NCBI GenBank assembly: GCA_029261255.1
Contig: JAJDBQ010000234.1
Span: 1-51,164 of the forward strand
DNA length: 51,164 bases
From: Nitrospirales bacterium
Lineage (GTDB): Bacteria; Nitrospirota; Nitrospiria; Nitrospirales; UBA8639
Reading direction: 5' to 3'
Shown here: piece by piece, positions 27,771-50,658 of the stretch
How positions within the stretch are numbered: the first letter of the stretch is position 1
How the letters are laid out: each line of letters opens with the position of its first letter
The notes under the pieces: model-generated
Databases searched by the model: none
Told to the model about the DNA's origin: nothing
What the model saw: only the letters and a program-made list of their open reading frames with translations
Program-made: the position numbers and the translations under genes

Positions 27771-27860
27771 AACGTCAGGCGTAAGGGGGAAGCCGTAGAG
27801 CGGAAGGAATAAAGATGGTTTTGAATTTACGCCTTACGCCTTACGCCTCACGTTTTACGA
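27771..27860. repeat. Heptad hairpin element E6 (GTAAGGC type)
   Basis: 5' arm (27772-27790): ACGTCAGGCGTAAGGGGGA. 3' arm (27827-27859): TTACGCCTTACGCCTTACG then CCTCACGTTTTACGA, with three near-perfect GCCTTAC/GCCTCAC units. It fills the fliL-fliM gap. Confidence 0.8.
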
Positions 27861-30763: not shown

Positions 30764-30857
30764 GCCGTCAGGCGTGAAGCGAAAAAAGACGTGAGGCGAG
30801 AGGTCGTCATCATGACCAATCTTTTTTCTTTACGTTTCACGCCTTACGCCTCACGAA
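30764..30857. repeat. Heptad hairpin element E8
   Basis: 5' arm: GCCGTCAGGCGTGAAGC (30764-30780), then GACGTGAGGCGAGAGG. 3' arm (30830-30857): TTTACGTTTCACGCCTTACG then CCTCACGA. An inner stem GGTC/GACC sits at the tip (30803-30818). It lies between fliP and fliQ. Confidence 0.8.
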
Positions 30858-31167: not shown

Positions 31168-31250
31168 GGGAAGACGTGAATCGTGAGGCGTCAGGTGAAA
31201 TAAAAAGAGATATTACTCCTTCACGTTTTACCCCTCACGCCTTACGAAAA
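31168..31250. repeat. Heptad hairpin element E9
   Basis: 5' arm (31171-31197): AAGACGTGAATCGTGAGGCG then TCAGGTG. 3' arm (31217-31248): CCTTCACGTTTTACCCCTCA then CGCCTTACGA. It starts directly after the fliQ stop. Confidence 0.78.
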
Positions 31251-38599: not shown

Positions 38600-38776
38600 T
38601 GAGGGGTAAGCAGTGAAAGGTCAGATATCACTCTGGCATATGACAAATAACGATTGCTTTTCCTGATAAGGTCATTTTATCTTTCTCGCCTAACGCCTAA
38701 CGCCTAACGCCTAACGCCTAACGCCTAACGCCTAACGCCTAACGCCTAACGCCTAACGCCTAACGCCTAACGCCTA
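38600..38776. repeat. Heptad element E11 with 12.7 perfect tandem GCCTAAC copies
   Basis: From 38688 to 38776 the heptamer GCCTAAC is repeated 12 times without error plus a partial copy (GCCTA). The 5' arm is short and degenerate (38603-38624: GGTGAGGGGTAAGCAGTGAA and onward), so the element is strongly asymmetric. There are no spacers, so it is not a CRISPR. The gap 38597-38859 has no gene. Confidence 0.92.
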
Positions 38777-44518: not shown

Positions 44519-44890
44519 ATGGGTAAGACTGTTTTAGTGGTAGATGATTCTGTTTCCATGCGGCAGATGGTGAGTTTTACACTCACTGGGGCAGGGTATG
44601 AAGTGGTAGAAGCCGGCGATGGAAAAGAAGCCGTCGATAAGTTAAACGGTGGAGCCAAGCCCAATTTAGTGATTACTGATTTGAACATGCCCAATATGGA
44701 TGGTATTTCGTTGATCAAAGCTATCAGGGGCATGGCCCCACATAAATTTACGCCAATTCTCATGCTCACCACAGAATCCTCGGATGCCAAAAAGAAAGAA
44801 GGGCAAGGAGCAGGAGCCACAGGCTGGGTGGTGAAACCCTTCAACCCCGAACAAATGCTCGCCACCATCAAGAAAGTGATGCCGGGCTGA
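44519..44890 (+). CDS. cheY: Chemotaxis response regulator CheY
   Basis: A protein of 123 residues, a single receiver domain, with a GAGGGAAG site. Acidic pocket Asp9/Asp10, phosphoacceptor Asp54 (VITDLNMPNMDG), Thr84/Thr85 and Lys106 (VVKPF) are all present. CheY, once phosphorylated by CheA, binds FliM (whose docking peptide is intact in this window) to change motor direction. A composite hairpin element with an S23-family gene separates it from cheA. Confidence 0.95.
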   Translation: MGKTVLVVDDSVSMRQMVSFTLTGAGYEVVEAGDGKEAVDKLNGGAKPNLVITDLNMPNMDGISLIKAIRGMAPHKFTPILMLTTESSDAKKKEGQGAGATGWVVKPFNPEQMLATIKKVMPG

Positions 44891-45366
44891 AAGACGTTAG
44901 GCGTGAGGGGACTCTGACGTCAGGCCTGAGGCGAAGAGGACGTGAGGGGAAGAAGACGAGAGACGAAGGGATTATGAAATGTGGAAAAGCCGCATAAGAA
45001 ATTAGATGTATGGAATATGGCGATGCAACTAGTCACTGACGTGTACCGTGTTTCGAAAAATTTTCCTGAAAAAGAAACGTATGGTCTTGTGAATCAAATA
45101 CGCAGAGCGGCTGTGAGTATTCCTAGTAACATTGCTGAAGGGGCAGGCCGACAAACTTCAAAAGAATTTGTGCAGTTTCTGCATATCGCGCAAGGTTCTT
45201 TGAGCGAATTGGATACTCAGTTAGAAATTTCAAAGAGGCTTGGTTTTTTGTCTCAAAAAGATTGGAGTGAGTTAGAAGCAATGATGAATCGGATTGATAA
45301 GATGGTGAGTGGACTGATTCGTCATAAAAAATCCCCTAACGCTTTACGCCTTACCCTTCACGAAAA
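44891..45366. repeat. Composite heptad element E13 carrying an S23-family gene between its arms
   Basis: 5' arm (44891-44970) directly follows the cheY stop: GACGTTAGGCGTGAGGGG, TGACGTCAGGCCTGAGGCG, GACGTGAGGGGA, GACGAGAGACGAAGGGA. 3' arm (45334-45364): CCCTAACGCTTTACGCCTTA then CCCTTCACGAA. Both arms match those of the empty elements, but 360 bases holding a complete gene lie between them. The 3' arm is inside the coding frame. Confidence 0.82.
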
Positions 45367-45403
45367 GATGAATAATCAGGTTGACGACAAAGGAGTGCAA
45401 TGA
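44981..45403 (+). CDS. S23/Avd-like four-helix-bundle protein (23S rRNA intervening-sequence protein family)
   Basis: A protein of 140 residues starting with GTG at 44981; the site GAAGGGA (44964-44970) is supplied by the hairpin 5' arm. Family hallmarks: HKKLDVWNMAMQLV in helix 1, FPEKETYGLVNQIRRAAVSI, PSNIAEGAGRQTSKEFVQFL, and a last helix LEAMMNRIDKMVSGLIRH. The usual length is about 118; here the C-terminus is extended by NALRLTLHEK and more, encoded by the hairpin 3' arm. Relatives are encoded in 23S rRNA intervening sequences, and Avd of diversity-generating retroelements has the same fold and binds RT and RNA. It breaks cheY from cheA and has no known chemotaxis role. Its TGA directly abuts the cheA ATG. 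Confidence 0.9.
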   Translation: MEKPHKKLDVWNMAMQLVTDVYRVSKNFPEKETYGLVNQIRRAAVSIPSNIAEGAGRQTSKEFVQFLHIAQGSLSELDTQLEISKRLGFLSQKDWSELEAMMNRIDKMVSGLIRHKKSPNALRLTLHEKMNNQVDDKGVQ

Positions 45404-47521
45404 ATGGCTGTTGATCTTTCGCAATTTCAGGAATCATTTTTTACGGAATCTGCCGAACATGTCGAAACCATGGAAACAGGGTTTTTGGAGTTAGAAGAGC
45501 GTCCAGAGGATCTTGATCTCCTCAATCGTATCTTTCGGGCGGCTCATTCCATTAAAGGCAATGCGGGAATGTTCAATTTTGCGGAGATTGCCGGTCTGAC
45601 CCATAAAATGGAAAACGTGTTGGACTTGATGCGGAATGAAAAGATTCCAGTCACACCGCATGCCGTAGATGTCTTGTTGCGCTCTCTGGATGGACTCAAG
45701 AGTTTGCTCGATGCGGCCCAAGGTGCAGGTGACGCTGATCAAGAGATTATCCAGGGTCTTGAAAAGGAGCTACAGGCCTGCCAAGACGGCGAGTCAGGGA
45801 GTGAGGTCACTGCAGCACCATCATCAGCGGAGGAGACGGTGGCTCCAGAAACAACAGCTCCACAGTCACCGGCATGGCGTCTCATAAAAATTAATTGGAT
45901 TCCGTTGCCAGAACTGTTTCAGCGTGGCTTGGATCCAGCGCAACTCTTTAAAGAGCTCCATGAATTGGGCATGATCAAAGATTTGATAGTACAAGTCGAC
46001 AAGATCCCTGCCTTAGACGTGATGGACCCTGAATGCTGTTATCTGAGTTGGAATCTCGAACTGGAAACGGACGTCTCGATTGACAAGGTGGAAGCGGTCT
46101 TCGATTTTGTCCGAGACGGCAGTGAATTGACCATTACCGATTGTGCGCCGAAACAGGCGGAGCCCTATAAACGTGTGGGAGATATCCTTGTCGAAGAAGG
46201 TGTCGTCACCCCAGGAGAAATCGCAGATGGTCTGGCCAAGCAAAAGCCGTTGGGAGAAATCTTAGTCGAAGACAAAAAAGTGACGCCACAGCAAGTTGAT
46301 AAGGCCCTCCAAAAACAAAAGCAACAGAAAAAAGGGGAAGTCGCCTCAATTCGAGTGGATACTGAAAAAATTGACAAGCTGATCAACTTGGTTGGTGAGT
46401 TGGTCATTACCCAATCCATGCTGACCGATTTAGGTGAAAAATTCACGATTGATCAATTGCCCGTTTTGCAAGAACGTATTGTGCAGTTGGAACGCAATAC
46501 CCGTGAACTACAAGAGCGGGTCATGTCGATTCGTATGATGCCGATTGGGTCAGCTTTTCATCGATTCCCTCGATTGGTCCGAGATTTATCTGGGAAAAGT
46601 GGAAAACAAATACAATTGGTTATGACTGGTGAAGAAACAGAACTGGACAAAACCTTGATCGAAGCGATAGGCGATCCGCTTACGCATTTAGTCCGGAATT
46701 CCGCAGATCATGGTTTAGAAGGCCCGGAAGAGCGCGTGGCGGCTGGTAAGCCAGAACGAGGTACCGTGCGTCTGCATGCATACCATGATGGTGGCAATAT
46801 TTGTATTGCAGTGGAAGATGATGGCCGAGGATTGAATCGTGACAGGATTCTCGCGAAAGCGATTGAGCGTGGACTAATTGCCGATGGTAAGGCGATGAGT
46901 GACGACGAGATCTATCAATTAATTTTCCGAGCCGGTTTCTCCACAGCCGAAACGATTACGGATGTGTCGGGGCGTGGCGTTGGTATGGATGTGGTGAAAC
47001 GAAACATTGAAGGGCTCGGGGGATCTGTGTCGGTCCAGAGCACTCCAGGCAAGGGTTCAAAACTCACACTCAAATTGCCGCTGACATTGGCGATCATTGA
47101 TGGCATGACCGTTCGAGTCGGGGAGGATAATTATATCATTCCACTCCTGACCGTCACCGAGTCGATTCGCCCAAAAGCCACTGATTTGCAGCGAATTGTC
47201 GGGAAAGGGGAAGTGGTGAATTTACGAGGAGAATGGGTTCCCCTGGTTCGTCTCTACGAAGTGTTTAATGTGACACCAGAATATACAGATCCTATGCAAG
47301 CCTTATTGGTGATTGTTGAAGTTGAGAATCGTCGACTGGCCGTCTTGGTGGACGAATTGACGGGTCAACAGCAGGTGGTGATTAAGACCTTGGAACAAAA
47401 TTATCGGAAGGTTGAAGGCGTCTCTGGGGCTACCATATTGGGCGATGGCCAGGTGGCGTTAATTCTGGACGTACCAGGATTGGCGAAGTTAGCTCGAGCC
47501 GACCATACCGTTGCAGCCTAA
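45404..47521 (+). CDS. cheA: Chemotaxis histidine kinase CheA, with an MshEN-like insert
   Basis: A protein of 705 residues. HPt domain with phosphorylated His48 (FRAAHSIKGNAGMF); a P2-like section (about 160-255); a short tandem motif YKRVGDILVEEGVVTPGEIA and LGEILVEDKKVTPQQVDKAL (about 250-300) that resembles GspE/MshE N-terminal units known to bind cyclic di-GMP; then dimerisation (IDKLINLVGELVITQSML), HATPase (LVRNSADHGLE, VEDDGRGLN, GRGVGMDVVKRNI) and CheW-like P5. It starts one base after the S23-like stop, with AAGGAG inside that gene. Confidence 0.96.
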   Translation: MAVDLSQFQESFFTESAEHVETMETGFLELEERPEDLDLLNRIFRAAHSIKGNAGMFNFAEIAGLTHKMENVLDLMRNEKIPVTPHAVDVLLRSLDGLKSLLDAAQGAGDADQEIIQGLEKELQACQDGESGSEVTAAPSSAEETVAPETTAPQSPAWRLIKINWIPLPELFQRGLDPAQLFKELHELGMIKDLIVQVDKIPALDVMDPECCYLSWNLELETDVSIDKVEAVFDFVRDGSELTITDCAPKQAEPYKRVGDILVEEGVVTPGEIADGLAKQKPLGEILVEDKKVTPQQVDKALQKQKQQKKGEVASIRVDTEKIDKLINLVGELVITQSMLTDLGEKFTIDQLPVLQERIVQLERNTRELQERVMSIRMMPIGSAFHRFPRLVRDLSGKSGKQIQLVMTGEETELDKTLIEAIGDPLTHLVRNSADHGLEGPEERVAAGKPERGTVRLHAYHDGGNICIAVEDDGRGLNRDRILAKAIERGLIADGKAMSDDEIYQLIFRAGFSTAETITDVSGRGVGMDVVKRNIEGLGGSVSVQSTPGKGSKLTLKLPLTLAIIDGMTVRVGEDNYIIPLLTVTESIRPKATDLQRIVGKGEVVNLRGEWVPLVRLYEVFNVTPEYTDPMQALLVIVEVENRRLAVLVDELTGQQQVVIKTLEQNYRKVEGVSGATILGDGQVALILDVPGLAKLARADHTVAA

Positions 47522-47650
47522 AAGCCGTGAGGCGTAGAAGACGTAAGGCGTTAGGCGAGAAGAGGTGAAGCGAGAAAGACGAGAGGTGTAAGGCGAATAA
47601 GACGTGAGTTTAATCCCCTTACGCCTGACGCTTCACGCCTTACGAGAAAA
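47522..47650. repeat. Heptad hairpin element E14
   Basis: 5' side (47524-47606): GCCGTGAGGCGTAGAAGACG, TAAGGCGTTAGGCGAGAAG and GAGGTGTAAGGCG. 3' arm (47616-47646): CCTTACGCCTGACGCTTCAC then GCCTTACGAGA. It occupies the cheA-cheW gap. Confidence 0.8.
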
Positions 47651-50587: not shown

Positions 50588-50658
50588 AGACGTAAGGGGT
50601 TAGGCGTAAGGCGTGAGGCGAAGGATGATGTGTCGCCTCACGCTTCACACCTTACGAT
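50588..50658. repeat. Heptad hairpin element E15
   Basis: 5' arm (50588-50620): GACGTAAGGGGTTAGGCGTA then AGGCGTGAGGCG. 3' arm (50633-50656): CGCCTCACGCTTCACACCTT then ACGA. Compact and clear, with a 12-base loop. The remaining gap to 50820 has no gene. Confidence 0.82.

Follow-up and report, generated by a model that had tools for sequence, protein, structure and literature searches.

A possible mobile DNA of unrecognised type: S23 genes framed by cognate inverted heptad arrays

We describe an S23 gene lying between cheY and cheA on contig JAJDBQ010000234.1 of a Nitrospirales bacterium (assembly GCA_029261255.1); the whole stretch analyzed, 51,164 nucleotides (nt) long, is called the window here. 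The gene encodes a four-helix-bundle protein and sits between two arms of an inverted array of degenerate 7-nt units, or heptads. From this arrangement the initial annotation had proposed that S23-like proteins and heptad hairpins form one system comparable to REP sequences and RAYT transposases, with the gene-bearing copy as the full element. The observation in the window is confirmed and its interpretation is partly supported: the union of protein and hairpin has good support and reaches further than first thought, with arms at most S23 loci of many genomes and a heptad spelling that tracks the S23 lineage. The features of the locus are as follows.

44519..44890, + strand: cheY-like response regulator, left neighbour (Response_reg, 94.2 bits)
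44891..44971, + strand: 5' arm of irregular GTGAGGC-type heptads with GAAGGGA, a possible ribosome-binding site, at its end (sequence; pairing; in-phase run)
44981..45403, + strand: S23/four-helix-bundle gene (PF05635) with a GTG start (family match 44996-45310)
45332..45366, - strand: 3' arm, formed by inverted heptads that overlap the end of the S23 open reading frame (ORF) (pairing; in-phase run 45335-45362; RNA fold)
45404..47521, + strand: cheA, right neighbour (CheW, H-kinase_dim, HATPase_c and Hpt domains)

The S23 ORF runs from its GTG at 44981 to a stop ending at 45403 and encodes 140 amino acids that belong to the family by both profiles searched, PF05635 (142.7 bits, cut-off 33.8) and TIGR02436 (133.3 bits, cut-off 24). 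Otherwise the protein has weak matches only, to bAvd and to DivGenRetAVD (28.2 bits, below the cut-off of 80). The GAAGGGA at 44965-44971 forms the end of the 5' array and can serve as a ribosome-binding site, as had been suggested, and the 3' array at 45335-45362 falls within the C-terminal tail of the protein, reading SPNALRLTLHEK. This 3' arm consists of four in-phase NGTDARG heptads, a run that occurred in none of 50 shuffles of the window, and the 5' arm holds a two-heptad in-phase run at 44895. The arms of this copy pair weakly with each other, best between 44891-44911 and 45332-45352 (score 22). Since the 5' arm is irregular, its claimed identity with the arms of empty elements holds for the motif and fails for the exact sequence.

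We scored arms by how well the upstream flank of each S23 match is locally complementary to its downstream flank, with about 18 expected by chance, and called a locus armed at a score of at least 28. From one scan of GTDB genomes the best 80 of 575 confirmed relatives were taken as named loci, a sample therefore biased to the canonical family. Of the 71 with full 200-nt flanks (nine left out), drawn from many phyla, 54 were armed, compared, on the contigs that carry them, with 15 of 422 other ORFs and 20 of 1193 placements chosen at random, and with 56 of 3000 cross-locus controls that paired one locus's upstream with another's downstream sequence. The S23 gene was strictly the top-scoring ORF at 51/71 loci, and 62 of 78 (two left out for short flanks) beat the maximum of 40 shuffles. 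Eighteen other ORFs within the 80 named loci have such flanks; six are themselves PF05635 and one is a Y1 transposase. Arms recur at 25/29 loci of a first Nitrospirota set, at 21/28 loci of four multi-copy Nitrospirota genomes (loci were available for 30 of 41 matches, of which two were left out), and at 49 of 60 in a later Nitrospirota batch, where 7/598 controls were armed. On plasmids, 12 of 13 S23 loci reach the threshold, among them 11 of 12 cyanobacterial ones (13 of the 42 plasmid records with S23). Predicted RNA folds at three loci pair the arms, with z of -8.34, -2.58 and, in the window, -4.27, each z being relative to shuffles. The gene itself is under purifying selection, with ratios of nonsynonymous to synonymous substitution (dN/dS) of 0.07-0.31 in five pairs with dS <1, not all of them independent.

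The arms are built of tandem 7-nt units: at the named loci their autocorrelation peaks at lags 7, 14, 21 and 28, and the best lag is 7 in 79/105 arms and 8 in 19. They are also polar, G exceeding C in 111 of 119 5' arms. Their median length of 33 nt (quartiles 27 and 39.5) is compatible with a possible count of exactly five heptads per arm for a pentamer. By eye, arms extend up to the neighbouring genes, and at one junction, trxB-thiI, the end of trxB runs into heptads. The spelling is diverse and includes GTGAGGC, GTGAAAC, TCAGCNN, GGTTTGT, AGTGAAT, GGTTCAAG and GGGAGTA, among others. GTRAGGC/GCCTYAC, initially taken for the arm motif, is thus one among many, and we reject a single universal GTRAGGC motif, the spelling differing between lineages.

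The spelling goes with the S23 lineage and not with the host, across genomes at apparently non-orthologous sites. We compared 156 loci with arms of at least 28 (window copy excluded) after setting aside 84 pairs with homologous flanks, as called by alignment score or shared 13-mers, a procedure that can miss old orthologous insertions. Mean motif similarity rose with S23 identity, from 6.3 at 0.35-0.45 (5761 pairs) through 10.7 at 0.60-0.65 (125 pairs) and 14.3 at 0.65-0.70 (35 pairs) to 17.3 at ≥0.70 (27 pairs), and none of 500 permutations reached the observed rho of 0.166 (maximum 0.082). Within a genome the motifs differ, with 0 of 68 same-genome S23 pairs at a motif score of at least 18 and one reaching 14. 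The coupling extends across phyla: when 97 Nitrospirota loci were set against 59 named loci from other phyla, flagged pairs removed, rho was 0.092, reached by 5 of 1000 permutations, and 4 of the 8 pairs with S23 identity of at least 0.65 had motif scores of at least 14. These four pairs amount to few independent events, since they link a Methanophagales archaeal locus (L098) with L038 and a single Desulfosarcina locus (L091) with three Nitrospirota loci; one of the four scores is inflated by sequence outside the heptads.

Arrays also occur without the gene. A motif scan of the window found five arrays of the same motif, each present on both strands and without an S23 gene:

27781..27851, both strands: gene-less array
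30791..30854, both strands: gene-less array
31183..31245, both strands: gene-less array
47527..47643, both strands: gene-less array
50592..50641, both strands: gene-less array

The genome of the window (G000, 88% complete) holds 35 matches to GTRAGGCGTRAGGC, many of them overlapping in long arrays, and a single PF05635 match. Within the genus, the number of GTRAGGC arrays follows S23 in a weak trend (p = 0.05). Triple TCAGCNN heptads occur in 67 of the 78 genomes of family f2, and the reversed pattern in none of the 78; the median number of TCAGCNN matches is 49.5 in the eight genomes with an S23 protein at least 61% identical to the TCAGC-type one and 7 in the other 70, a difference with p = 0.0006 without correction for kinship. 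The window also carries, at 38688-38771, twelve GCCTAAC heptads in tandem on one strand only.

Two junctions show turnover. The initial annotation had called for cheY-cheA junctions to be compared for an empty site, and three nearly empty ones (G012, G013, G005) exist among the 15 that are readable in the genus of the window, where 16 of 20 genomes have a CheA match. Classed by family scores and reading by eye, the others comprise five with a strong, stop-free S23 gene (G000, G011, G016, G014, G002) and G006, whose strong match contains a stop. In G010 and G019 the frame is open and the sequence strongly diverged; G001 has a broken gene, G008 a remnant, and G009 and G018 scrambled stretches that still have a heptad-like end. 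G011 apparently carries a replaced element at the same site: its CheY is 100% and its CheA start 97.5% identical to those of the window, yet its S23 protein is 61% identical and its arms are of AGAAGTGA type. At trxB-thiI (ThiI matches in 71/78 genomes, best 30 loci read), four loci share one S23 lineage with GTGAAAC-type arms, L242 has a 56% identical S23 with GTGAGGG arms, and 25 lack S23. By eye, some S23-less gaps bear single arms and two (L237, L245) are gene-less heptad hairpins; L231 and L234 are short plain gaps. Many Nitrospiraceae trxB-thiI gaps (L218-L246) hold a different intergenic repeat of about 160 nt, running from GGATGCTCAAAATGG to CATTTTCAGCATCC.

The closest published likenesses are the following. 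REP/REPIN sequences with RAYT (TnpA-REP) likewise combine many short hairpins per genome, one or a few genes with the same arms, and a lineage-specific pairing of protein and repeat (PMC3116915, PMC2817692). Dispersed gene-less copies of the arms and the pairing of protein lineage with repeat are both found here; the two systems differ in that RAYT is a Y1/HUH transposase and S23 a four-helix bundle, and that the S23 repeats are tandem heptads, not single palindromes. In the 23S rRNA intervening sequences of Leptospira and Coxiella an ORF of the same family lies within a stem of complementary arms (PMC4990558). In contrast to these, the window copy, at its cheY-cheA site, and nearly all loci examined lie outside rRNA, and the passages available from that paper describe neither the heptad make-up nor the lineage-specific motif. 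At least one S23-bearing intervening sequence shares the build: in the rrn operon of Azospirillum lipoferum plasmid AZO_p2, the only one of the examined loci with an insertion inside 23S rRNA, the S23 gene lies inside a full large-subunit rRNA match (L216 1274-4472) between heptad arms scoring 47. The heptameric repeats of cyanobacteria, Xanthomonas and Beggiatoaceae are tandem 7-nt units, mostly intergenic and, in Xanthomonas, often in inverted pairs (PMC4692102, PMC4679880). The S23 genes on cyanobacterial plasmids lie within such arrays, a likeness in type of repeat. The Avd protein of diversity-generating retroelements belongs to a related family (PMC10053308), and the comparison initially drawn with it holds for sequence (weak matches) and fold and fails for reverse transcriptase genes, which do not track S23; unlike in those retroelements, the RVT_1 matches of the window's genome lie on contigs C236, C71 and C40, none on the window contig (C151).

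S23 is said, in the passages cited, to be a widespread family of no known function, and its Xanthomonas member is described as a toroidal homopentamer (PMC4990558); five chains are likewise seen in both solved homologues, 2gsc and 2rld. What role heptameric arrays play in Xanthomonas and Nostoc "remains to be elucidated" (PMC4692102), and a repeat-binding protein yet to be identified was suggested to be possibly the mobile element (PMC4679880). The term "S23" does not occur in either of these two papers, and searches of an open-access library listed no paper whose title, abstract or passages covered link S23 genes to heptad arrays, subscription papers being outside the scope.

We favour, at a probability of about 0.6, the reading that an S23 gene and its cognate inverted heptad arrays form one REP/RAYT-like element without a recognised transposase, with gene-less arrays as its satellites. 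The data establish the association of gene and arms, the period and polarity of the arms, the cognate coupling and the turnover at two junctions. Turnover and scatter lead us to infer that the unit is mobile; the gene-bearing copies would then be full elements and the others non-autonomous derivatives. The unit, an S23 gene in the loop of an inverted degenerate-heptad array, would enter gaps between genes and sometimes 23S rRNA, after which the gene would decay or be lost while the arrays multiply or persist as gene-less hairpins. RNase III is reported to cut at 23S intervening sequences, and by analogy the arms could pair in the transcript and enclose the S23 ORF in a stem open to this enzyme, so that insertion would be tolerable. 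The ring, homopentameric in the solved homologue, might bind the strand of its cognate heptad as single-stranded DNA or RNA, perhaps at about one heptad per subunit, and might, together with host enzymes, cause the hairpin to be copied or transferred, thereby driving spread.

Several observations weigh against this reading. Comparison of the loci resolved neither an insertion boundary nor a target duplication nor an excision, and profile searches recognised no catalytic domain in the S23 protein. About a quarter of S23 loci fall below the arm threshold, the window copy included, whose score is not exceptional, since 173 of 2000 placements made at random in the window reach it. In the genus of the window just 4 of 10 S23 genes reach 28 (G011 42, G001 34, G016 31, G002 30) and the others score 27 (G014), 26 (G006 and G008), 22 (G000), 19 (G019) and 17 (G010); that of G008 lies on a different contig, is split between frames and has no heptads visible by eye. 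Both rank correlations of the motif are small, most pairs being distant, and diverged orthologous insertions may be present among the pairs classed as non-orthologous. Many arrays lack a cognate S23: G213, G079 and G327 hold 78, 83 and 64 TCAGCNN matches without such a protein, and GTRAGGC arrays are present in some genomes that gave no PF05635 match, such as G004 and G007, both incomplete. Even so, S23 genes are not mostly armless, nor is the gene fixed at cheY-cheA without arms, either of which would have refuted the initial annotation.

The best-surviving alternative, itself unlikely, is a regulatory cassette that is not self-mobile, in which the arms are S23-binding sites controlling the S23 mRNA, the arrays without a gene are places where S23 controls other operons, and spread occurs only by ordinary recombination and gene transfer. 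The likely ribosome-binding site within the 5' arm of the window, the cognate coupling and the purifying selection on S23 all accord with such a cassette, whereas an inserting unit better fits three findings: one S23-motif pair turns up at different places, across phyla too; the same gaps are occupied and vacated repeatedly; and insertion in 23S rRNA occurs.

Less probable still is a helper enzyme (a Y1 transposase, a reverse transcriptase or a GxxExxY protein) that moves arrays together with passenger genes such as S23 and the nuclease-fold GxxExxY. GxxExxY (PDDEXK_3) genes also lie between inverted short-repeat arms, at 26 of 29 scored PF13366 loci (L174-L203, L195 left out) and, in a second count, at 26/28 against 3/128 controls; a Y1 transposase is among the inverted-flank ORFs, and Avd, a relative of S23, works with a reverse transcriptase in the account cited (PMC10053308). 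The arms of GxxExxY, however, have a period of 8-10, no PF13366 match was found in the genome of the window, and only 4 of 4056 comparisons of S23 with GxxExxY arms reach 18, so we reject GxxExxY as part of the same system and keep it as a separate lead. Dependence on a reverse transcriptase is unsupported, RVT_1 being present in 3 of 10 S23-bearing and 4 of 11 S23-free genomes, as is a universal Y1 helper, with Y1_Tnp in 9/10 and 7/11; G242, with ten S23 matches at 93% completeness, has neither. A defence role for S23 was also set aside, its sole sign being a PADLOC match at E 0.008.

That arrays born of slippage are insertion hotspots or safe havens where S23 genes merely accumulate is very improbable: arrays do far outnumber S23 genes, and one group of authors invokes slippage of the polymerase for heptamers (PMC4692102), but other ORFs on the same contigs are rarely found between arms (15/422), and motifs differ between copies of one genome yet are common to related S23 proteins in different genomes.

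Should the element of S23 and its arrays be mobile, it would lack any recognised transposase, integrase and reverse transcriptase, with S23-bearing 23S intervening sequences as a special case of it. A broader proposal, which as a whole we hold at somewhat less than even odds, is that S23 and cognate arrays constitute a class of mobile elements reaching from many bacterial phyla to archaea of methanogenic lineage, devoid of a recognisable transposase, in which the ring-shaped, nucleic-acid-binding protein copies or moves its own heptad hairpin, and which would count among its parts or relics the S23-bearing 23S intervening sequences, the cyanobacterial heptads (presumably those named STRR), the Xanthomonas GGGAATC arrays and the TAACTGA arrays of Beggiatoaceae. 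Each S23 lineage being tied to its own heptad, every S23 protein comes with a predicted target, so that the function of S23 and the role of the arrays can be tested together.

Some S23 loci stand out by their surroundings. On plasmids of Pseudanabaena galeata and Anabaena sp. 90 (L208, L210), a type I-D CRISPR operon has a heptad-armed S23 gene between its cas6 and cas4, and Riemerella anatipestifer plasmids (H22-H25) bear an S23 gene. Near two other S23 loci are ORFs with inverted flanks of their own, an IS200-like Y1 transposase (L131 3862-4281) and an ORF without a Pfam match (L110 8607-9161).
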